NCBI GenBank assembly: GCA_003223215.1
Contig: QHYH01000088.1
Location: forward strand, 1-64,000
Direction: 5' to 3'
Length of the DNA stretch: 64,000 nucleotides
Source: Acidobacteriota bacterium
GTDB taxonomy: Bacteria > Acidobacteriota > Terriglobia > Acidiferrales > UBA7541
Part shown: positions 35,237-46,640 of the stretch, piece by piece
Numbering within the stretch: position 1 is the first letter of the stretch
Layout: every line of letters begins with the position of its first letter
The notes under the pieces: model-generated
Database searches by the model: none
What the model saw: only the letters and a program-made list of their open reading frames with translations
Told to the model about the DNA's origin: nothing
Program-made: the position numbers and the translations under genes

Positions 35237-38200
35237 CTAGTTCCCGGCCACCGCAGCCGGTCTGGGTGGAGCCTGGGGAGCCTGCGGTTCGGGCTCGACC
35301 CCTCGCCACCCCACGGGGCGGCCGCGAACGGCTTCCTTGACCGAGCGGAAAAGCACCACGTACATCAACTGGCGGTAATAGAAGCGCTGCAGGAGCACGG
35401 GAACGAGCAACGTCCAGTCTTCCTTGCGCTCGAGCGCGAAGGCGAGAACACAGGTAAGCACATCAATCAGCAGGAAGCCGATGAAAAAGAACACGGAGCG
35501 CATCAGATCGCCGGTGGTCGCGTGAATCGTCGGCAGCCAGGAGAGTTGCAGCTTTTCGAGCGCCCAGAGCCCCACCGACCACAGGAACAATAAATCGATC
35601 AGCGGAGAGATGAGCGGGAGCACCAGCTGAAAAACGAAGATATTCGGCAGGGCGATCCAGCCGAGCGTTCCGTACTTCCACCGGAACAGCGTGCTGCTGT
35701 GCTTCCAGAAGGATTGCAGCGTGCCAAACGTCCAGCGAAAGCGCTGGCGGATGAGCTGGCCGGGGGTATCGGGAGCTTCCGTCCAAGCGATGGCCTCTTC
35801 GTCGTAGCCAATGCGCCAGCCAACCCGGCGGATGGCAATGGTCAGGTCGGCGTCTTCGGCCACGGTGTCCGCGGTGATCCCGCCGGCGGCTTCGATGGCC
35901 TGCTTGCGCCAGGCGCCGAGAGCGCCCGGAACCACGGTGATGCAATTGAGAAGATCAAAGGCGCGTTTTTCCATGTTCTGGCTGGTGATGTATTCGAGCG
36001 CTTGCCAGCGCGTCAGCCAGCGCGAACGATTGCCGACCTTGACGTTGCCCGCGACCGCGCCCACGGTGGGATCGCTGAAATGCCGGACCAGCTTGCGAAT
36101 GGCATCGGGTTCGATTTCTGTATCCGCGTCGATGGTCACCACGATTTCCGTCTGCGCCTGAGACATGGCCACGCTCAGCGCCGCCGCTTTGCCGCGGTTC
36201 ACCTGGTGCATGACGCGTACGCGAGGTTCGCGCGAAAAATGCGCATCCAGCAGCTCTCCGGTTTTGTCCGTGGAACCGTCGTCCACTACGACGAGATGCA
36301 GATCCGGATAATCGGAAAACAGCACGGAATGGACGGTTTCAACGATGACCTTTTCTTCGTTGTGCGCGGGAATCAGCACGGTAACGCCGGGCAGCGGCGC
36401 GGACATCTCGGTGCGGTCCGGCCGCAGTTTCTCGATGAACGCCAGGATGCCAATGACCAGCGTGCGGCCGCCAACGAGGACGATTCCGAGAATAAACGCG
36501 GCGGTGATGGCCACCCAAAACCAGTGATAAATGCCGAAGATGAAGCCGTCGGCGCGCGCCTCGAATTGTTCCTGCGGTGAAAGCGGAAGCATGACCTGGG
36601 CGCGCGTTTTGCCGATAAGTTCAGGAACGGAGGCAAACTCATATCCCTCGGCACGGAGAGCATCGATAAGCTGCGGGAGCGCGATGAGCGTCTGGCTGCG
36701 ATCCCCGCCGCCATCATGAAGAAGAACGATGTTGCCCTCAGCCGCCTCGCTAATGGCGTTCTGGACGATGGTTGAGGCGGGCAGCGGAACGCCCGGACTG
36801 AGCCGCTTCCAGTCGTGGGGGTCCACCTTCTGGCCGACGATGATGTAGCCCATCTCCTGCGCGGTCGGAAGATGCGCCACTTCTTCGGCAAATTCGGGCT
36901 GGTGGTCGATGCCGTAAGGAGGCCGGAAAAGAAGGGGTTTGGCCCCGACCACGCTCTCGATCAGGCGCTCGGTGAGATTGAGTTCCCAGCGAATTTGCGT
37001 GTTGGACAGATTCGGGTTTTCCCAGTCCGGATGAGAGTAGGTGTGATTCCCGATTTCGTGCCCTTCCGCGTATTCCCGGCGAAGCAGTTGCGGCCACTTG
37101 TTCGCCGACAAGCCGATCACAAAGAAGGTCGCCGGGACGTTCTTTTCCTTGAGCACATCGAGGATTTTGGGAGTCCACTTCCAATCAGGCCCGTCGTCGA
37201 AGGTGATGGCCAGTTTTTTCTTGGCGGCGCCGATCTGGTCGATGCGATAGGAGAGCGGATAGGCTTCGTACTTTTCGTTGGTAATGAGATCGCTTGACGA
37301 ATCGTAAGAGATGCTGCGGCGGCCCCGCTTCGGGGTATCGAGGAAGTGCCACACGTCGCCATCCCCTTCCAGGATGAGATCCGGTCCCGGGGGAAGGTCT
37401 TCGATCTTCTGACGAATGGCGTCGTTGGGGCGGGTGGCGTCCCAAATGGGCCAAAGCGAGGTGTCGGCCGAGCCGAGCCGCCACAACGCCGTACCCCGCA
37501 AGCCCAGGCGCTCGCTCGCGCGCAGCTCGTTGTAGGCGGTCACCGCATCGAGCATCCACACCTGATGCACGTGATTGTGCTCGTCATAGTAAGAGTAATG
37601 GGGGTTCAGCGAGCGAGAATCGAATTCCACGATGCCGTGAAGCGGGTCCGCCGGAGCATTCCCGACGACTTGCGCCTCGGACTCAAAGGCGTGCAGCAGC
37701 GCTTCCTGCATCGTAAGAGGTTGCGCCGGTTCGTGGGTTTTCTGGGCACCTTCCGACCAGTCATACGCACAGCTGCCCACGGCGACAATGAGTTTCGTCG
37801 GCGGCACGACCTCCCCAATCTGTCGAAGGTTTTCGACGTACCAATCCTGGGAAGCGATGGGCCCCGGCGGCGAGGTCTGCCAGTGTTCGTCGAAGTTCAT
37901 CAGCACGATGGCATCCGACTGTTTCGCGAAAAATCCGTAATCGTAGGCGTCGTCGCGCGCTGGGAGGGCCAGCATCAGCTTAAGCCCTACCGCATGGAGC
38001 GCCGGGCCGAGCTCGGCGGCGAACTCCCGGTAATGCGCCTGGCTGGTGTCGGGGACTTCTTCGAAATCCACGACGATGCCGGCTTCATGCGATTCGACCG
38101 CAAATTCCACGGCGTCGTGCACCAGCCTTTGCCGCGAGAGAGGATTCTCGAGCAGCTTCACCATGTCGTCGATGCGCCAGTGAACGCCGTCGTAGTTGTT

Positions 38201-38737
38201 GAGCAGCGCCATCATCGGCAGTTCGACGGGAGGATTCAGAGACTTCATCCACTGGTGCAACTCGTCCTGTTTCACGAGGGAGACGGCTGCTGAGGGTGTT
38301 GCTTTGACGCGATTCTGGCCGTGCTCGTAATCCACGACGGTCAGCGCGCCGTCCTCGCTCACGGCGTGAAGCTGCTCCGGGATCAGCAGGTCGATCTCGC
38401 GATAATGCTTTTTCAGAGAGGCGAGACTGTTGGGATCCCAGCTGACAAAAAACGCAGCGCGCACGGGGTCGTAGCTCGCCGGCACGGTTCCGATATTGGC
38501 CACGCGACGGCGGCGGCCTTCGCGAACCGGCTGCGTCCGCTTTTTCGTTTTCAGCGCGTGATAGCCCAGCTTGGTGTCGGGGAGCAAACCGGCGGGCAAA
38601 TCGACGCTGACGGCGATGGTGATGAAGAAGTACACCAACAGCAGGGTGAGCAGCGCTCCACTGATCTCGAGGACACGGCGAGTGTGGCGCCAGCGCACAC
38701 GCTCCGCGTCGTAAAATATCGGTCCACGTTCCTTCAT
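35237..38737 (-). CDS. Three-domain GH18-like / polysaccharide deacetylase / GT2 membrane protein
   Basis: A 1166-residue fusion. An N-terminal helix (25-45) is followed by a GH18-like domain (about 90-435) with IVVDFEEVP holding the acid/base Glu226. Next is a NodB (CE4) deacetylase domain (about 508-710): TFDDGPDW (D514, D515), GHEIGNHTYSHP (H565, H569), FRPPYG (605-609) and LLHDGGG. After transmembrane helices (740-770) comes a processive GT2 domain (785-1010): VVVDDGSTDKT, TIDADTEIEP, AEDADLTIAI and QRFRW (998-1002), then several membrane helices and a Pro-rich tail. It could make, export and then trim or deacetylate a beta-linked amino-sugar exopolysaccharide, as PgaB/PgaC do separately. 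The closely paired neighbour across the divergent region is a GT39-like protein. Confidence 0.88.
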   Translation of the reverse strand: MKERGPIFYDAERVRWRHTRRVLEISGALLTLLLVYFFITIAVSVDLPAGLLPDTKLGYHALKTKKRTQPVREGRRRRVANIGTVPASYDPVRAAFFVSWDPNSLASLKKHYREIDLLIPEQLHAVSEDGALTVVDYEHGQNRVKATPSAAVSLVKQDELHQWMKSLNPPVELPMMALLNNYDGVHWRIDDMVKLLENPLSRQRLVHDAVEFAVESHEAGIVVDFEEVPDTSQAHYREFAAELGPALHAVGLKLMLALPARDDAYDYGFFAKQSDAIVLMNFDEHWQTSPPGPIASQDWYVENLRQIGEVVPPTKLIVAVGSCAYDWSEGAQKTHEPAQPLTMQEALLHAFESEAQVVGNAPADPLHGIVEFDSRSLNPHYSYYDEHNHVHQVWMLDAVTAYNELRASERLGLRGTALWRLGSADTSLWPIWDATRPNDAIRQKIEDLPPGPDLILEGDGDVWHFLDTPKRGRRSISYDSSSDLITNEKYEAYPLSYRIDQIGAAKKKLAITFDDGPDWKWTPKILDVLKEKNVPATFFVIGLSANKWPQLLRREYAEGHEIGNHTYSHPDWENPNLSNTQIRWELNLTERLIESVVGAKPLLFRPPYGIDHQPEFAEEVAHLPTAQEMGYIIVGQKVDPHDWKRLSPGVPLPASTIVQNAISEAAEGNIVLLHDGGGDRSQTLIALPQLIDALRAEGYEFASVPELIGKTRAQVMLPLSPQEQFEARADGFIFGIYHWFWVAITAAFILGIVLVGGRTLVIGILAFIEKLRPDRTEMSAPLPGVTVLIPAHNEEKVIVETVHSVLFSDYPDLHLVVVDDGSTDKTGELLDAHFSREPRVRVMHQVNRGKAAALSVAMSQAQTEIVVTIDADTEIEPDAIRKLVRHFSDPTVGAVAGNVKVGNRSRWLTRWQALEYITSQNMEKRAFDLLNCITVVPGALGAWRKQAIEAAGGITADTVAEDADLTIAIRRVGWRIGYDEEAIAWTEAPDTPGQLIRQRFRWTFGTLQSFWKHSSTLFRWKYGTLGWIALPNIFVFQLVLPLISPLIDLLFLWSVGLWALEKLQLSWLPTIHATTGDLMRSVFFFIGFLLIDVLTCVLAFALERKEDWTLLVPVLLQRFYYRQLMYVVLFRSVKEAVRGRPVGWRGVEPEPQAPQAPPRPAAVAGN

Positions 38738-38837: not shown

Positions 38838-40304
38838 ATGAAGCGAATTTTCTCGAGCCGGGTTTTCCCGTTGGCGGTAGGGCTTGGCCTGCGCTTGCTT
38901 TTTGTGCTGCTAGTTCCGGCCACTTCCGGCGACACCGTTCTTTACGAGCAAATCGCCACAAACTGGCTGAAACACCACGCCTATGCCATGGATGTGCATG
39001 GCGCACTCACTCCGGTGGACATAAGAATGCCGGGATATCCCGCCTTTCTGGCCCTGATCTACGCGCTCACCGGCCGAACCGGGGAATCCGCGCGATGGTG
39101 GGTCATGCTCGCGCAAATTCCTGTGGATCTTCTGGGGTGCCTCGTGATCGCACGCCTGGCCGGGATGTTGACTTGCCCGTCGGGAAACGACGCGCGCGGT
39201 GAGCGGGCCTACACCCTGGCGCTGTGGCTGGCCGCGGTTTGCCCCTTTACCGCGAATTACACGGCCGTACCCCTCACCGAAGTTTTCGCTTGTTTTTGGA
39301 CCGCGCTCGCGTGCTGCGTTCTTGTGGTGGCAATCGAAACAGTGAAGAAGCCGGATTTTCTCTTGCGGGGGTCCGAGATGCCATCGCGCCGGGGCGTGGA
39401 GTACGCGGCGCTCGGCGCGGGACTCATCGCGGGTATGGGCGCGTTGTTTCGCCCGGAAACCCCCCTGCTGCTCCTCACCGCGGCGATCGTGCTTGGCGTA
39501 TTGCTTCTTCGGCTTGCGCAATTCGCTCGCTGGTTTTTGGCCGCGGCGGCGATGATCATCGGGTGCCTGATCGTGCTGTCTCCCTGGGCTTTGCGCAACC
39601 GGCTGACATTCAACGAAGTGCAATTTCTCAACCCGAAATATTCGACTCTTCCCGGCGAGATTGTCCCTTACGGCTTCATGGCCTGGGAAAGGACCTGGCT
39701 GTACCGCGTGCGCGACTGTTATCTGGTGCCCTGGAAGCTTGATGAAGAGGCCATCGATGTCGACGATATCCCTCGGCGGGCCTTTGACTCGCCGGCAGAA
39801 AAGCAGAGCGTCCGAGACATTCTCGAAAAGTACAACCAGGACTTGACGCTGACCAAAGAAGAGGACGATGCGTTCGGCCAAATCGCGCGCGAACGCGTTC
39901 GCCGTCATCGCTTGCGCATCTTTGTGTGGATTCCGGTGGCGCGCGCGGTGGCCATCTGGTTCACCCCGCGCATCGAGCTCTTGCCTCTGTCGGGGAACGT
40001 TTTTCCCTTGGCCGAGATGTATGATGAGGATCCCGTTGATCAAGGATTCACCATTCTGTTTTTCCTGCTGAACATGGTTTACGTGGGCCTGGGAGCGTGG
40101 GGCGCGAGAAAACTCTGGCACGCGAGCCCGGCCATCCGGCCCGTGGTTGCTTTTTTGGTTCTCTACATGCTGCTGCGCACGGCGTTCCTGACCACGCTCG
40201 AAACGCCCGAGCCGCGCTACGTGCTCGAATGCTTCGCGGGGCTCATAGCTCTGGGAGCCGCCGCCCTAGCGGGCCGACGAGGTGTGGCCGGGGAGGCGGC
40301 TTAG
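38838..40304 (+). CDS. GT39/ArnT-like multi-pass glycosyltransferase
   Basis: A 488-residue membrane protein with about ten helices. The first lumenal loop after helix 1 carries ATSGDTVLYEQIATNWLKHH and PVDIRMPGYPAFLALIY; Asp and Glu residues here are the usual catalytic and metal site of GT-C (GT39/GT83) enzymes that use a polyprenyl-phosphate sugar. The start at 38838 is preferred because it directly precedes the first helix. It is divergent from the deacetylase/GT2 fusion and overlaps by 4 bases the end of the convergent CDF gene. Acceptor unknown; protein or lipid glycosylation is possible. Confidence 0.78.
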   Translation: MKRIFSSRVFPLAVGLGLRLLFVLLVPATSGDTVLYEQIATNWLKHHAYAMDVHGALTPVDIRMPGYPAFLALIYALTGRTGESARWWVMLAQIPVDLLGCLVIARLAGMLTCPSGNDARGERAYTLALWLAAVCPFTANYTAVPLTEVFACFWTALACCVLVVAIETVKKPDFLLRGSEMPSRRGVEYAALGAGLIAGMGALFRPETPLLLLTAAIVLGVLLLRLAQFARWFLAAAAMIIGCLIVLSPWALRNRLTFNEVQFLNPKYSTLPGEIVPYGFMAWERTWLYRVRDCYLVPWKLDEEAIDVDDIPRRAFDSPAEKQSVRDILEKYNQDLTLTKEEDDAFGQIARERVRRHRLRIFVWIPVARAVAIWFTPRIELLPLSGNVFPLAEMYDEDPVDQGFTILFFLLNMVYVGLGAWGARKLWHASPAIRPVVAFLVLYMLLRTAFLTTLETPEPRYVLECFAGLIALGAAALAGRRGVAGEAA

Positions 40305-41725
40305 CGATCCTCGGCGGGTTCCGGGTGGATGGTGACGCGATAAATTTGTTGAAACTTTTCCTTTACACGATCTTCCAAAGCGGCGGTCACATCGTGGACT
40401 TGCGTGATGGGCAGCTCGCTCTTCATGGTGCAATGGCAAGAGACCAGAATATGATGCTCGACCTGCCGCACGCGGACGTCGTGGCAGTTCACCAATTCAT
40501 CGAACTCCGACGGCAGGCGGTTCAGGAAATCCTCGATGGCCTTGGCGAGTTGCTTCATCTCCTCGAGGTCAGAGTCGGGCGTCGCGATGTGGTGCCCCTG
40601 CGGCTCGATGTGGATGTTTACGTCAATGGCGCCGTCGCGCAGTTCGCGGATCTGGTCTTCCAATTCGCTGGCCTGGCGATGGGCCTCGCGCAAGCTCAGA
40701 TTCTCGTCCACTTCGACGTGCAACTCGATAAAAAGGCGGCCGTCCTGCTGCGATGCATGCACGTCGTGAATCGCCAGTCCCATGCGCTGGGCGAGCGCGC
40801 GAATGGCCTCGAAAAGATGTTCGCCAACGGGCGCGCGCGGCTCCACGTGCACCATCACATCAGAAGGAACAATTTCGCCGATGCGCTTCTCGATGGCGTC
40901 GGTCAGCGCATGTACCTGTTCGAGGCTGGCGGACCGCGCCACGCTGACGGTGGCGTCCACGAAGTGACGGTTGCCGGCGCGGCGCACGCGCACGCGCACG
41001 ACATCGAGCACGCCGGCCATTCGTTCGAGCGCCAGGGCGATCTCCTGTTGCAACCCCTTGGGCGCCGCGTCCAGGAGCGCGTCTAAGGTGCGCCGGCCAA
41101 GCTGCGAGCCAACCCATAAGACCACGGCGGCGACCGCCAGGCCGGCGAGCGCGTCCGCGTAGACGAGCCACGGCAGATCCCAGGTTTCGCCGGCCCACAC
41201 CAGCCCGATACCCACGATGACCACGGTGGTGCTCCATACATCGGTCGAAAAATGCAACGCGTCGGCTTCGAGCGCTTCACTTGAATACTTTCTCGCGGCT
41301 TCCCGGAGGGCCCGCGCTCGTGTGAGGTCGATGGACAGTGCGACGAGCAGCACTACAATGGCCATCACGCTCGGCTGGATATGCACGGTGCGGAAAAACA
41401 GCCGGTCGAACGCCTCGTAAATGATGTACAGGGCCGTCAGCGCCAGCAGACCGGTCTCGACAAATGCGGAGAAATTCTCGAATTTCCCGTGACCATAGGG
41501 ATGGCGCTCGTCGGCGGGCTGATCGGAGACGCGAATCGAGAGGAAGGTAATGATGGCGGCAAGCAAGTCGAGCCCGGAGTGCAGCGCTTCGGATAGCACG
41601 CCAAGACTGCCCGTCCGCACAACCAGAAAAGCCTTCAAGGAAACCAAAAGCGTGGCGGAGCCCACGCTCAGAAGCGCAGCGCGCTTCTTCCCACGCGCCT
41701 CCTCGATTGGAGCAACGCTTTCCAT
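40301..41725 (-). CDS. Cation diffusion facilitator with an extended, repeated cytoplasmic tail
   Basis: A 474-residue CDF transporter. Six N-terminal helices with the metal-binding HSGLDLLAAIITF and ALHFSTDVWSTTVV (H-x3-D sites) form the usual Zn/Fe/Mn channel. The cytoplasmic part is about 270 residues, three times the normal length, and contains three units of similar pattern: VLDVVRVRVRRAGNRHFVD at about 240, LAIHDVHASQQDGRLFIELH at about 318 and VNCHDVRVRQVEHHILVSCH at about 408, each followed by a helix and a IHIEP/VHVEP strand. This suggests three tandem ZT-dimer domains. It is a single gene convergent with the GT39-like gene. Confidence 0.87.
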   Translation of the reverse strand: MESVAPIEEARGKKRAALLSVGSATLLVSLKAFLVVRTGSLGVLSEALHSGLDLLAAIITFLSIRVSDQPADERHPYGHGKFENFSAFVETGLLALTALYIIYEAFDRLFFRTVHIQPSVMAIVVLLVALSIDLTRARALREAARKYSSEALEADALHFSTDVWSTTVVIVGIGLVWAGETWDLPWLVYADALAGLAVAAVVLWVGSQLGRRTLDALLDAAPKGLQQEIALALERMAGVLDVVRVRVRRAGNRHFVDATVSVARSASLEQVHALTDAIEKRIGEIVPSDVMVHVEPRAPVGEHLFEAIRALAQRMGLAIHDVHASQQDGRLFIELHVEVDENLSLREAHRQASELEDQIRELRDGAIDVNIHIEPQGHHIATPDSDLEEMKQLAKAIEDFLNRLPSEFDELVNCHDVRVRQVEHHILVSCHCTMKSELPITQVHDVTAALEDRVKEKFQQIYRVTIHPEPAEDR

Positions 41726-41800: not shown

Positions 41801-43645
41801 TTATTTCGCTGCCGTCATGGGGGGTGGCGGCAGCAGCGCAAGCCGTTTGGCTTCGGCGCGCTCGCCCCGCGCCTCCACTTCGTCGAAGAGCAAAGAAGGC
41901 GCGACGATCGAAGCAGGCAAGCCCACTTGCGCCGAGCCAAACGCGCTGAAGGCCGTGCCGGCGAAGTTACCCTGGCTTTGCACATGATTGAAAACAAAGT
42001 CGTCGTTGCCGATCCCGGCGATGTTCCGCAGCGTGCGCGTACTCAAGCCGACGAGGCGCGCTCCCCGGACCATTTCTTCGCGGCCGGTATCGGGATAAAC
42101 GCGATAGACGATCAACGGCAGCCGGTCGCCTGTTCCCGCGCCGCCCCCGAAGCTCGCCAGCAGTTCCGAGAAATCGTCCTGGTGGAGCAAGCTCAGGGCC
42201 GGATTGTCCATCTCGCGAATCACCAGGCAGTACTTCTCGCGTTCGGATTGTTTCTCCTCCCGGCATTGCTTCAGGAATTTCTTGCGCAAATCGTCGGGCG
42301 AAACCGCTTCGGTCGAAGAAAAGATCAAATTGCTCATGGTGGGCTTGGCGTCGCTCAAAAACGCGGAGCGCCCGTGGCCGTTCGACTGCTCGAAATCCGA
42401 ACCGGGACGGCGCGACATGAGCTCGCCCTTAAGAACCCCGTTTTCGACCAAGGTGATTTTCTGGCCGCGCACGCCTTGTTCATCCACGGTGTATCCGCCG
42501 ACGAGCCGGCTGCCCTTGAACTCTTTTGCTCCCGGGTCGTCCACGAGCGTCACGCTCGGCGCCAAAACCCGTGTACTAATGCGCCCGACCCAGTCGCTCT
42601 TCCCTCCCAGTCCGGTCAGCATTTGTTCGAGCACCGGGCTGAAGGATATGGGTGGCCTCGCTCCGTTGATCGCCGGGCTCAACACCTGTGCCAGCAGCGA
42701 TGCCGCCGCGCGTGCTTCAAACAGCACCGGCCCGGTGTAATCCTGCGCCGGGGGCGCCGAGCGCAGGGCCATTAATTCCGTGCAGGTGACGTTCAGGCCC
42801 TTGCGGACCCCGTCCACGTTCGGCAGGTCCGCGGGGCGAACGGCGTAGGTCGCATAATAATGATTCACCGGTACGCCATCGTCGGCCACGGCGTTCATGC
42901 CCGCCTCGATGGCCGCAAAGCTGCGATTCTCGCGGATCTCCGTCCCTTCGCTAGTGAGCAGGTATTCGGTCGCGTAAACCAGGTAATAGCTGACGCGCGA
43001 CTCGTGGATTTGCGAGAACGCGCGCATCACCGCGGAGCTGTCCCGCGCTTCCTGTTCCCAGTTGCGGTTGGTCCAGTCCGGGGTCTCAAGCGGCTGGATC
43101 AGCTCGACAGGCTCGGTCTTTGAAAAATCGTCGATATCTGATTGCCGCGCCAGGCTGCTGAGGTAGCCTTTCTTCTTCGAGTAAGTATCGAGCGCTTCCT
43201 TGAACGCCTGATCGGTTGCGATCCACAAGTCCTGCCGCAGCGAGTCGTAATCGCGGTCGACGCCCACCTGGCCCGTCGGACCGATGAAGCCTCGAAAAAC
43301 GTCGTCGCTAACGAAGTTCGAGCTGTCCAGTTTGTAGCTCCCCACGCGCGCTTGCACATTCATAAAGCGGTTCCGCGCATGCGTGCTCGTAAGCAAATCG
43401 CCGAACTCGGCCACCACTTCGCGCACGTCCAGATCGACCAAGCGGTATTCGATGTAAAACGGCCGTACCGTTTGATCGGTGTTGGGAATCTGCAATTCCA
43501 GTCGGGCCTTCGAACGGGCCATTTCATCTCGCATGGCCTGAAGGGTATGGTCGTTATCCTGTTGCGCCCGCGCGAGCTCGGAGCTCGCACAGCTCAAAAC
43601 CGCCAAGAGAAATGCCGCTTTCGCCATTCTTCCCGCGCGCCTCAC
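41801..43645 (-). CDS. TldE/PmbA-like exported metalloprotease partner subunit
   Basis: A 614-residue TldD/PmbA-family protein lacking the HExxxH zinc motif; the equivalent place reads EARAAASLLAQVLSPAIN. The fold markers are otherwise present (LVDDPGAKEFKGSRLVGGY, then VDEQGVRGQKITLVENGVL and SNGHGRSAF). An N-terminal signal is evident (KAAFLLAVLSCASSELARA), with a possible lipoprotein Cys, whereas classical TldE is cytosolic. It overlaps the active partner at 43642-45393 by 4 bases, as in a TldD/TldE heterodimer. Its role is probably structural for the pair. Confidence 0.82.
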   Translation of the reverse strand: MRRAGRMAKAAFLLAVLSCASSELARAQQDNDHTLQAMRDEMARSKARLELQIPNTDQTVRPFYIEYRLVDLDVREVVAEFGDLLTSTHARNRFMNVQARVGSYKLDSSNFVSDDVFRGFIGPTGQVGVDRDYDSLRQDLWIATDQAFKEALDTYSKKKGYLSSLARQSDIDDFSKTEPVELIQPLETPDWTNRNWEQEARDSSAVMRAFSQIHESRVSYYLVYATEYLLTSEGTEIRENRSFAAIEAGMNAVADDGVPVNHYYATYAVRPADLPNVDGVRKGLNVTCTELMALRSAPPAQDYTGPVLFEARAAASLLAQVLSPAINGARPPISFSPVLEQMLTGLGGKSDWVGRISTRVLAPSVTLVDDPGAKEFKGSRLVGGYTVDEQGVRGQKITLVENGVLKGELMSRRPGSDFEQSNGHGRSAFLSDAKPTMSNLIFSSTEAVSPDDLRKKFLKQCREEKQSEREKYCLVIREMDNPALSLLHQDDFSELLASFGGGAGTGDRLPLIVYRVYPDTGREEMVRGARLVGLSTRTLRNIAGIGNDDFVFNHVQSQGNFAGTAFSAFGSAQVGLPASIVAPSLLFDEVEARGERAEAKRLALLPPPPMTAAK

Positions 43646-45393
43646 TTTGCCCCTCCCGTCTTGACTGTGTCATGGGCGGGCGGCGGCAGAATCGGCGGCC
43701 GGTCGGTCGAAGTTTCCTTTTTCTGCACTTCCATTTCGGAAATGAGAATCGCGGGCGAAGCGGCCGCCACCGGAACGGACCCGGATTCGGCGCCGCAATA
43801 GCCGTTGAACACTTCCGGCTTGTCGCCCGTGGCCACGATCTTGGTCAAAGCGGCCAGCGGCGTGCCCACGATGTCCACTCCCCGCACGAGTTCATCGGGC
43901 CGGCCATCAGGAAAGACCTCGTAAACCACCAGCGGCTGCACCTGAAAAGCCTGCGGCTGCCCCCGCCCGGTGAAGGTGAATCCCCCGGCGATGTCGTCGA
44001 TCAGCAGCCCGTATGGTTTGTGTTGTTCCCTGATCAATTCGATGAATTTCCCTCGAAGCTCCGCGTTGCTCACCGTTTTGCTGCTTTGCACGATGAGGTT
44101 GCCCTGCCGCGAAACCGGTGTCGCGCCAAGCTGCCTCCGTCCGTGCCCGTTCGAGTGCGGAAAGCCCACCAGCGGCGACCGCGACATCTCGAAACTCTTC
44201 AACACCCCGTGATCGACCAGCGTCACGCGCTCGGCCGGCACGCCTTCGTCATCAAACTGGTAGTAGCCGAGCAAATCCTGCCCTCCCAGCTTCCTCATGG
44301 TGGTGTCGTCGGTGATGCTCAGGAAAGGCGGCAGAATTTGCTCTCCGACTTTTTTCGAGAAGGTTTGTCCTTCGCTCACGTCTTTTTGCCGGTGGCCTTC
44401 CGCGCGGTGGCCAAAAACCTCGTGGAAGAACACCGCGGCGGCGCGTCCCGTGAGCAGCGCCGGGCCAACGGTTGGGTCGACAATCGGCGCCTTGATCAGC
44501 CCTTCCAGCTCCTTGCGCATGGTCGCTTCGGCAGCGTACACGGCCTTGTCATCCGGCGCTTCTTTCGGATCCACCCAGTCAAAGTTGTAATAGCGGTCGA
44601 TGTCCATCCCGTCGGGCGCCTTCCCCTGGATAAACAGTTCCAACCGGTAGCGCACCTGTCCGAACTGCAGTTGCGTCCCTTCGCTGGTCACTTGCAGCAC
44701 GTTTTGCGCCTGCGCGCTGAAGGTCACGATGGAATTGATGATGGCCGCCGATTCGCGAAAGGCTTTCGTGTACGCGCGCACTTTGGCTTCCCACGGCGTG
44801 CGGTCCACGTTGATGGAAACCTGCGGCGAGATGGAAACGTGCGGCTGCTCGCGGGAAAAATCCGGGGCCTTGCCCTCGACCGTTTCTACCTTCACTTCTT
44901 TTCCCGTCTTGATCTTAATCAGCGCTTCTTCGGCGGCGCGGTACTGTTTGTCGGTTTCGAGCCAGGCGGAGCGGCGCAGCACTTCGGGGTCGTTATCCAC
45001 GGGCACGGCCACGACCGGGTTGTCGCTTTGTACTTGCCGTTCCCCGACCTTGTGGGTGTCATCCAGCTGGTAGCTGCCGGCGCGCACCGAAACCTCTAGA
45101 TAGCGGTTGCGCACCGCCCTGCTGTCGAGCAATGCTCCGTTCGAACCCGAGACGTCCACTCTCTGCGTGTCGGTGACCGCATATCCGATGTAATACGCCG
45201 CAGGGTCCTGGGCGCCGTAGGTCTTCATCGAGCGGTCGAGTTCCGCCTGGAGCGCTCCGAGCAACGGTGAACGCTGCGCCTGGGCGTCCGGCGGGTAAGC
45301 CGCGGCCTTCGGCGCAAACAGCGTAGCCAAGCCCGCGAGGAGACCCAGCCCAATAAGATAGGAAGCCCATGCACTTCGCTTGGCATTATTCAA
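43642..45393 (-). CDS. TldD-like zinc metalloprotease with a signal peptide
   Basis: A 583-residue TldD-family protein with the zinc motif FFHEVFGHRAEGHR (His324, His328) and downstream FDDEGVPAERVTLVDHGVL. Cytosolic TldD with TldE degrades unfolded peptides and matures microcin B17. Here the protein starts with a clear signal peptide: SYLIGLGLLAGLATLFAP then KAAA, so it should act outside the cytoplasm. It is the first gene of the pair. The next gene upstream is a FecR-domain gene on the same strand, 236 bases away. The secreted version of this pair appears not to have a defined substrate. Confidence 0.86.
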   Translation of the reverse strand: MNNAKRSAWASYLIGLGLLAGLATLFAPKAAAYPPDAQAQRSPLLGALQAELDRSMKTYGAQDPAAYYIGYAVTDTQRVDVSGSNGALLDSRAVRNRYLEVSVRAGSYQLDDTHKVGERQVQSDNPVVAVPVDNDPEVLRRSAWLETDKQYRAAEEALIKIKTGKEVKVETVEGKAPDFSREQPHVSISPQVSINVDRTPWEAKVRAYTKAFRESAAIINSIVTFSAQAQNVLQVTSEGTQLQFGQVRYRLELFIQGKAPDGMDIDRYYNFDWVDPKEAPDDKAVYAAEATMRKELEGLIKAPIVDPTVGPALLTGRAAAVFFHEVFGHRAEGHRQKDVSEGQTFSKKVGEQILPPFLSITDDTTMRKLGGQDLLGYYQFDDEGVPAERVTLVDHGVLKSFEMSRSPLVGFPHSNGHGRRQLGATPVSRQGNLIVQSSKTVSNAELRGKFIELIREQHKPYGLLIDDIAGGFTFTGRGQPQAFQVQPLVVYEVFPDGRPDELVRGVDIVGTPLAALTKIVATGDKPEVFNGYCGAESGSVPVAAASPAILISEMEVQKKETSTDRPPILPPPAHDTVKTGGAK

Positions 45394-45629
45394 GGGGAAA
45401 CCTCATTCTCTTTGACGGGACTCGCGAAACATTCAGTGTACGCTAATGGAGAGGGCGTGCCAAACACCGCGGACGCAATCTTTCCTTCCCGACAATTCGT
45501 TTGACGGCTGGTTTGTTCTTTCCGTTGCACGCCGGGCGGGAAGCTGCGCTTTGCCGCGATGAGGGTAAAGCCGACAACCTGGCGCTCGAGCGCAAGCTTG
45601 GTTTAGGGGTTTATTATAGGCGCGCTCGC

Positions 45630-46439
45630 TCAGCAAGCTTTGCTGGCGATACAGCCATTCTGGGGCGGCTTCGTGCCGCCGCCGCGGGTCAATCCCACAC
45701 CCAACCCCGTTCCGACCGCTCCCGCGAGGATTCCGACCGTTCCCCACACGCCAAGGTGCGGGTGCGGCCCGGCTCGGGCGGTTGCGCCCGACGGCGCGCC
45801 TGCGTTGGTGTCGTTGCTCGAGGTCACCAGCACGTCGAGGGTGGCTTGCTGTGGCGGCAACGGCGCGGAATTGTCACCGCTGCGCACGCTGGTCATCTGC
45901 CCGGCCTTGGCCATCACACAAACACCGGCAAGGTTGCAGACCTTCACGAGCCCTTCGAATACGATCACGTTCATCGCGTTGTTCGCATATTCCACAAAAA
46001 AATCCGTGCCCACGACGCCCGCGACGCCGGCTGCGGTGCGTAGCTCGAATTTCCCGTCGGGCTTCGTGATTTTTTGCGCCTGCGTCCGCAGCTTTCCATA
46101 AGTGAGCTCGAGTTCGGTTTGCTGCGCGCCCGCATCATGCTTGATCACCTGGATGGAGGAATCCGAGCCAACGTTGAGCACCGAACCGTCGTCGAGCGCG
46201 ATGCGCGCCCGCGCACTCACCTGGGTGTTTACGAGGTCTTGCCAGTTCACAACCGTCTTGGCCGCGGCAGGAATGGTTTTGCCGCTGCGCGCAAGGTTCA
46301 CCGCCGGGATCACCCGCGAAACCTCGCCCGCGCGCGGCCCCGTCCCCGCGGGAGCTGCCGAGCTATCGCAAGGCATCGCCACGAGCCAGGAAAGCAGCAT
46401 CGCCAAAGCCATGGCACACGGAGACTTCTTGATCATCAT
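45630..46439 (-). CDS. FecR-domain exported protein
   Basis: A 269-residue protein. A signal peptide (LAMLLSWLVAMPCDSSAA) precedes a FecR domain: ALDDGSVLNVGSDSSIQVI, LELTYGKLRTQAQ, TAAGVAGVVGTDFFVEY and VIVFEGLVKVCNL. The C-terminal third is low-complexity, with a Gly-rich helix (GVWGTVGILAGAVGTGLGVG) and a final CIASKAC. FecR domains sense or bind surface ligands; there is no sigma factor beside it, so this is a standalone type. Start chosen at 46439 (MMIKKSPCAMAL); 46460 is possible. It shares strand with the TldD/TldE-like pair. Confidence 0.82.
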   Translation of the reverse strand: MMIKKSPCAMALAMLLSWLVAMPCDSSAAPAGTGPRAGEVSRVIPAVNLARSGKTIPAAAKTVVNWQDLVNTQVSARARIALDDGSVLNVGSDSSIQVIKHDAGAQQTELELTYGKLRTQAQKITKPDGKFELRTAAGVAGVVGTDFFVEYANNAMNVIVFEGLVKVCNLAGVCVMAKAGQMTSVRSGDNSAPLPPQQATLDVLVTSSNDTNAGAPSGATARAGPHPHLGVWGTVGILAGAVGTGLGVGLTRGGGTKPPQNGCIASKAC

Positions 46440-46640
46440 CTTGGCTTCTCCTCGGAGCACGACCCTATCTATCGTTGTTACCGGAGGCCCGCAGAACTGT
46501 CAATCGCTCTGAGGAAGCCGCTTGTCCACTCTCTACCCGACCGCGAGGACAGGAAAGGTGGTGTGGTTTCCCCGCGCAAGGTCATTCCTGCGGTTTCCTA
46601 ATCCCCACGCTTTTCGCTTTTCTTCCGCCTCCGCCCGATA

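Follow-up and report, generated by a model that had tools for sequence, protein, structure and literature searches.

A stretch of 64,000 nucleotides of contig QHYH01000088.1 of a soil Acidobacteriota bacterium (assembly GCA_003223215.1; hereafter the window), part of a genome of 8.8 Mb, carries two adjacent genes, D and E, that are related to those of the TldD/TldE protease and that both begin with putative signal peptides. We consider it probable that they encode a heterodimeric zinc peptidase of the TldD/TldE fold that is located outside the cytoplasm (periplasmic or periplasm-facing), consists of a catalytic subunit D and a catalytically dead subunit E, both exported, and acts on unfolded peptides. 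From sequence, conservation, gene pairing, gene fusions, predicted folds and phylogeny we infer export, dimerisation, metal binding, activity and substrate. An earlier note, made from the letters of the window alone, had described two overlapping frames with signal peptides, a zinc motif in one subunit and a non-catalytic partner, and had suggested an extracytoplasmic TldD-type protease. The frames, their strand, their ends and the four-base overlap are confirmed in the sequence, and the protease reading gains support from family-wide signals, conserved zinc-site residues, predicted folds and three fusions, location and activity being predictions.

The relatives compared are the best 80 of at least 458 ranked matches plus a draw of 149 genomes of the phylum, and the sample is not an unbiased one. 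By the D gene, the nearest relatives are metagenome-assembled genomes (MAGs) of Acidobacteria subdivision 2 and Candidatus Acidiferrum, the best segments of the nearest five (L017-L020, L027) being 84-89% identical.

The N-termini of D (MNNAKRSAWASYLIGLGLLAGLATLFAPKAAA-YPP) and E (MRRAGRMAKAAFLLAVLSCASSELARA-QQD; the dashes mark possible cleavage sites, judged by eye) both resemble signal peptides, with Lys or Arg residues, an uncharged hydrophobic core and AxA-type sites. A crude, home-made caller, which asks for a positive n-region, an uncharged hydrophobic core and a small-x-small site and takes the best of several starts, found such a segment in 98 of 103 D frames and 94 of 100 E frames, against 5 of 41 classical TldD/TldE proteins and a background of 219 of 543 neighbouring open reading frames (ORFs) given similar freedom of start choice. 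With a stricter threshold for the core, these figures become 91/103, 85/100, 2/41 and 177/543. Some of the D and E frames are pieces (L027 is in two frames), and L097 is the genome's own second pair. In all five close relatives examined, the TTG start of D lies at the same place and is followed by a hydrophobic core (starts set by our own caller). Codons 2-42 of D change fast, with 103 nonsynonymous and 59 synonymous differences between relatives in 205 comparisons, against 372 and 919 in 2705 comparisons for the rest of the gene; third positions are still the most variable ones there, and hydrophobicity is kept, by eye. Export-like signals are a family-wide trait of both subunits, in several phyla. 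Cys533 is the only cysteine of D, and the median is one per exported D versus four per classical TldD, which suits an oxidising compartment.

Signals of another kind are present in some relatives. The E genes of six loci (L036, L040, L044, L053, L057 and L087) carry twin-arginine (Tat)-like RRxF signals, without a counterpart in D in five of them (the D of L036 has one), so that the two subunits may leave by different routes. A loose Tat-like pattern is found in 11 of 104 E frames and 2 of 106 D frames. Tat-like leaders were also identified by eye in four classical-type TldD proteins (L129, L139, L149 and L151), which are four of the five classical passers of the signal test and perhaps represent a second exported group.

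The catalytic motif HEVFGH is present in D, and its residues H324, E325 and H329 are kept in 57 of 57 aligned relatives, where Glu332 is also invariant. Cys533 is kept in 56 of the 57, the exception being a frame-broken row (L118) that was retained in the alignment. For comparison, passages of PMC5810440 name His262, His267 and Cys454 as the metal ligands of E. coli TldD. No HExxxH motif is found in the E protein of the window or in any of the 44 aligned E proteins. The place of the clamp-tether Lys456 of E. coli TldD is occupied by Ala in all 57 exported D proteins and that of Asp272 by His in 46 of them, whereas both residues are invariant among 21 aligned classical D proteins.

Both proteins match the C-terminal domain of PmbA/TldD (PF19289; 104.5 bits for D and 75.3 for E, cut-off 22), and both are predicted to adopt the TldD/TldE fold. 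Their AlphaFold2 models (pLDDT 90.1 for D and 86.5 for E) have 5njf_A (E 1.6e-34) and 5nj5_A (E 8.1e-26), respectively, as top Foldseek matches, and for each model all 16 matches with E <= 0.001 are TldD or TldE/PmbA-type chains. The D model aligns to 5njf_C with Z 31.0 over 444 residues (3.3 A) and the E model to 5nj5_A with Z 31.7 over 434 residues (3.4 A), the E model being more like TldD chains (Z 30-32) than TldE/PmbA-type ones (Z 23-26). The structure searches gave nothing but TldD/TldE above the background rows, a result that excludes no other kinship. A proline-rich tail, RPPILPPP (D residues 565-572, window positions 43678-43701), follows the last strand of D; its Pro567, Leu569 and Pro572 are present in at least 90% of exported D proteins, the tail is looser in E, and it does not appear in the consensus of classical TldD.

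The E gene lies immediately after D in 97 of 102 loci. In the other five, the two are fused (L061 and L088), the contig end is too near (L075), no E is adjacent (L099) or D is of the solo type described below (L119). The genome of L099 (G051) has a second match, with an E-like score, on another contig. The four-base overlap recurs in 40 of 89 related D-E pairs (starts by our own caller), and translational coupling of D and E through it is likely. Three D-E fusions were identified (L061, 7992-11363; L088, 5670-9191; and L166, from a genome in the phylum of L063, a Phycisphaerae MAG), which are placed in different parts of the tree. In each of the three, one signal-like segment stands at the N-terminus and the short joint shows none; a single signal for both halves speaks for their working together in the same compartment. 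Together with the gene pairing, this fits the predicted heterodimer of D and E.

The exported pair seems to have a history of its own. In profile comparisons, exported E matches exported D over its full length (E 5e-128), against 2e-17 for classical TldE and 2e-22 for classical TldD, and exported D matches classical TldD with 7e-26 and classical TldE with 2e-10. A tree built without the HExxxH columns places exported D and E on one side and classical D and E on the other (100/100), and trees forced to unite exported with classical E, or exported with classical D, were rejected (p-AU 1.2e-8 and 2.5e-8, respectively), although the dividing branch is long and the approximately unbiased (AU) test shares the model's weakness there. 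The rows comprised 19 of the 57 D and 20 of the 44 E proteins, 21 of 28 classical D, all 11 classical E found and, in another tree, three fused halves of each kind and five of six solo proteins (L162, a near copy, was omitted). These solo TldD-like proteins (L161-L165 and L167), found in some Planctomycetota and Acidobacteriota, share a clade with the exported pair (100/100), with HEAxGH in 6/6 and CGAESG in 5/6; no signal segment was seen in them by eye and no E partner within their 7-kb stretches, and they may be homodimers. The node uniting exported D with exported E to the exclusion of the solo proteins is weak (91/57), and this order is not firm.

These comparisons support placing the exported pair in a clade apart, in which D and E split on their own, rather than seeing in it a classical pair to which signals were added. 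Since exported D and E group apart from the classical proteins, a dead subunit apparently arose twice. On the simplest reading, which presupposes a catalytic ancestor, the exported lineage acquired its dead-subunit design together with export, independently of TldE. It is possible, though short of likely, that the lineage descends from a solo, cytosolic-looking TldD-like ancestor that was duplicated, with loss of the active site in one copy and relocation of both copies beyond the cytoplasm. The product would be a periplasmic "pencil sharpener" for unfolded peptides of the envelope, and in one acidobacterial group its genes would have joined an operon with LptF-LptG. By PF19289, the genome of the window harbors four TldD/TldE-type pairs, one classical with PF01523 and three without it, including that of the window. 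In the second exported pair of this genome, the E gene (L011, 5565-7410, minus strand) is split across two overlapping frames; its intact relatives are in L071, L074 and L095.

In the draw of 149 Acidobacteriota genomes, a strong D match of the exported type (>490 bits) occurs in 22, and a further genome has a match of the solo type (354 bits). Seven of the 22 (G024, G050, G088, G089, G108, G117 and G143) lie outside the 80 genomes with a PF01523 match, which indicates that the exported pair does not need the classical one. PF01523 is present in 10 of 12 genomes reached through the named loci. In the phylum of L063 (119 genomes), five genomes, two of them seeds, have a D match above 760 bits, with E adjacent or fused in four. 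In the phylum of L088 (titled Gammaproteobacteria; 200 genomes), matches at E <= 1e-60 are confined to the seed genome. Other hosts titled among the best 80 are Aminicenantes, Eisenbacteria, Zixibacteria, Cloacimonadota and Gemmatimonadetes MAGs and one Alphaproteobacteria; host names were taken from MAG titles, which can be wrong.

The chemistry of the mechanism we propose is borrowed from E. coli TldD/E, as described in passages of PMC5810440, and we infer every step past the gene level. Both precursors would leave the cytoplasm by means of their N-terminal signals and fold only after export. D would bind zinc through His324, His329 and Cys533 and close with the dead E into a hollow shell, which would let in unfolded peptides or loose protein N-termini and cut them stepwise, in the manner of the cytosolic E. 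coli enzyme. The likeliest job of such an enzyme would be the turnover or maturation of cell-envelope peptides.

Several points weigh against an exported heterodimeric peptidase. The usual first domain of the family, PF01523, has no match in D or E up to E 0.1, and the altered clamp tether (Lys456 to Glu270/Asp272) suggests that the active site may differ in its details. The home-made signal caller picks the best of several starts and also fires in neighbouring ORFs, at the background rate given above, and the loose change of D codons 2-42, usual for signal peptides, appears to be weak proof of constraint. Finally, one D (L099) has no neighbouring E, and a Planctomycetota genome (G268) has an E-like match on another contig.

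A narrower form of the same idea is that the exported pair serves outer-membrane or lipopolysaccharide (LPS) assembly, for example by removing or trimming envelope proteins that are unfolded, and has LptF-LptG as its functional partner in one acidobacterial group; we regard this as possible but rather doubtful. Neighbours were counted with a simple ORF caller in flanks of at most 8 kb, and def, fmt and similar names were given by eye. Of the 80 named loci, 25 have a fused LptF-LptG gene (PF03739, 4.1e-154 in the one member scanned) downstream of E and in the same orientation; the titles of these 25 are all acidobacterial. This adjacency to an LPS export gene hints at a role in the envelope. 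The gene starts 2 to 16 bases past E in 17 of the 25, the deviating distances in the other eight being partly due to a crude start marker, and it is present in 12 of 13 loci titled Bryobacter-, -ales or -aceae (L057 is the exception). However, the link is limited to this group, and gene order is not function. Elsewhere the pair has other or unrelated neighbours, and no universal one was found among the loci compared. A cation diffusion facilitator (CDF) transporter lies downstream in 15 loci besides the window, 70 to 5121 bases away; that it supplies metal to the periplasm is a guess. A cluster of PASTA proteins (one member scanned) follows four pairs (L011, L071, L074 and L095), with an fmt-like gene upstream. 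A protein cluster whose one scanned member is an M16 peptidase is near the pair in seven loci, and an S41 peptidase lies upstream in L041.

It is less probable still that the N-terminal segments are uncleaved membrane anchors holding the dimer on the outer face of the inner membrane, or that E is a lipoprotein. The Cys at residue 19 of E, in VLSC, resembles a loose form of the lipobox motif, but this cysteine is not constant among the N-termini examined by eye in part of the relatives. As to an anchor, most frames contain the small-x-small site that the caller demanded behind the core.

A dedicated maturation protease for secreted modified peptides, of the kind of ribosomally synthesised and post-translationally modified peptides (RiPPs), is improbable. 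Passages of PMC5810440 and PMC10885120 describe such a role for the cytosolic family, as for classical TldD/E and microcin B17, and the earlier note had proposed looking for peptide genes near homologues. As to maturation enzymes, Radical_SAM was found in 2 of the 82 nearest neighbours scanned (hand-picked from 136), and no YcaO or lanthipeptide enzyme among the 25 commonest of 157 families, small precursor genes not having been searched for. Three exported-type pairs in one genome also fit a general role better, and we rejected a RiPP context given the little sign of one among the scanned neighbours. Very improbable, finally, are cytosolic proteins whose N-terminal segments are artefacts of wrong start codons: the starts are TTG and GTG, the caller picks among starts and synonymous constraint on the signal segment is weak, but nearly every relative tested shows the signal-like trait, which is absent, by eye, from the partnerless solo relatives and also from most of the classical proteins.

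The coordinates of the pair and of the features around it are given in Table 1.

Table 1. Features of the exported TldD/TldE-like locus and its flanks (window positions)
Feature	Position	Strand	Details
D gene, exported-type TldD-like catalytic subunit	45393..43642	minus	583 aa, TTG start
E gene, TldE-like non-catalytic partner	43645..41801	minus	614 aa, GTG start
Putative signal peptide of D, residues 1-32	45298..45393	minus	possible site PKAAA/YPP, judged by eye
Putative signal peptide of E, residues 1-27	43565..43645	minus	possible site ARA/QQD, judged by eye
HEVFGH zinc/catalytic motif of D (H324, E325, H329)	44407..44424	minus	conservation and alignment to E. coli TldD HExxxH
Cys533 codon of D, predicted third zinc ligand	43795..43797	minus	corresponds to Cys454 of E. 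coli TldD
GTGA four-base overlap, D stop/E start	43642..43645	minus	sequence
Cation diffusion facilitator (FieF/MntE-like)	40301..41725	minus	75 bases downstream of E; PF01545 146.6 bits, TIGR01297 261.3 bits
FecR-domain gene, next gene upstream	45630..46460	minus	same strand, about 236 bases away; PF04773 68.2 bits
Promoter-like site	45435..45463	minus	about 40 bases before D; 9/12 matches, weak

The CDF transporter of the window (474 aa, with three ZT_dimer stretches by Pfam) is perhaps in the same operon as D and E. The FecR-domain gene is indeed the next gene upstream, as the earlier note had stated; it scores 23.9 bits against the NCBIfam FecR equivalog PRK09774 (cut-off 385), below the threshold, and reaches only that of the domain PF04773. 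We rejected FecR as a functional partner, as only 7 of the 83 clustered loci, that of the window among them, have it next to the pair, and these are all near relatives; this neighbour is probably incidental and tells little on function. Promoter-like sites show no excess over chance in the region (2 seen, 1.1 expected, sd 0.9). Further downstream, a gene at 35237-38737 (minus strand) encodes a protein of 1166 aa that looks, by eye, like a hydrolase, a polysaccharide deacetylase and a glycosyltransferase in one chain, and that is kept near the D-E pair in 10 other loci.

With respect to known systems, neither subunit reaches the NCBIfam equivalog cut-offs of classical TldD and TldE: D scores 46.4, 66.1 and 13.8 bits against NF008006, NF040952 and NF008268 (cut-offs 513, 635 and 438), and E 22.9 and 18.0 bits against the first two, with no match to NF008268. 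A literature search of titles and the starts of abstracts found no description of such an exported pair; it did not cover the 2022 family review by Vobruba, and a mention in print is possible. The available part of PMC11508158 mentions gyrase modulators only. TldD is listed in the culture supernatant of Leptospira in the part of PMC5881292 available, together with HslU, ClpP and methionine aminopeptidase, and was not taken as evidence of export.

The TldD/E enzyme is described as a self-enclosed cytoplasmic protease. If our reading is true, its exported relative would be a new ATPase-free way to clear or trim cell-envelope peptides, and one fold would twice have evolved a live subunit paired with a dead one. 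The E. coli TldD/TldE (PmbA) pair (MEROPS M103, PDB 5NJ5/5NJF) shares with that of the window the fold, as predicted for most of the chain (Z about 31), an HExxxH motif with a distant Cys and a gene pair of one catalytic and one dead subunit. The window pair differs from it by signal-like N-termini on both subunits, only 18% identity in the structural alignment and its place in a separate clade (100/100) with its own D/E split, and exported D differs from E. coli TldD by Ala in place of Lys456 and, mostly, His in place of Asp272, by its single cysteine and by its proline-rich C-terminal tail. The classical TldD/TldE pair of the same genome (C104, 61.5-64.3 kb) belongs to the same superfamily and is likewise adjacent, but it has PF01523, as the only one of the four pairs, and no signal-like start. 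The solo TldD-like proteins share the clade of the exported pair and differ from it by the lack of a signal (by eye) and of an E partner. D and E belong to a distinct, conserved TldD/E family of exported type, a variant of the known TldD/E type.

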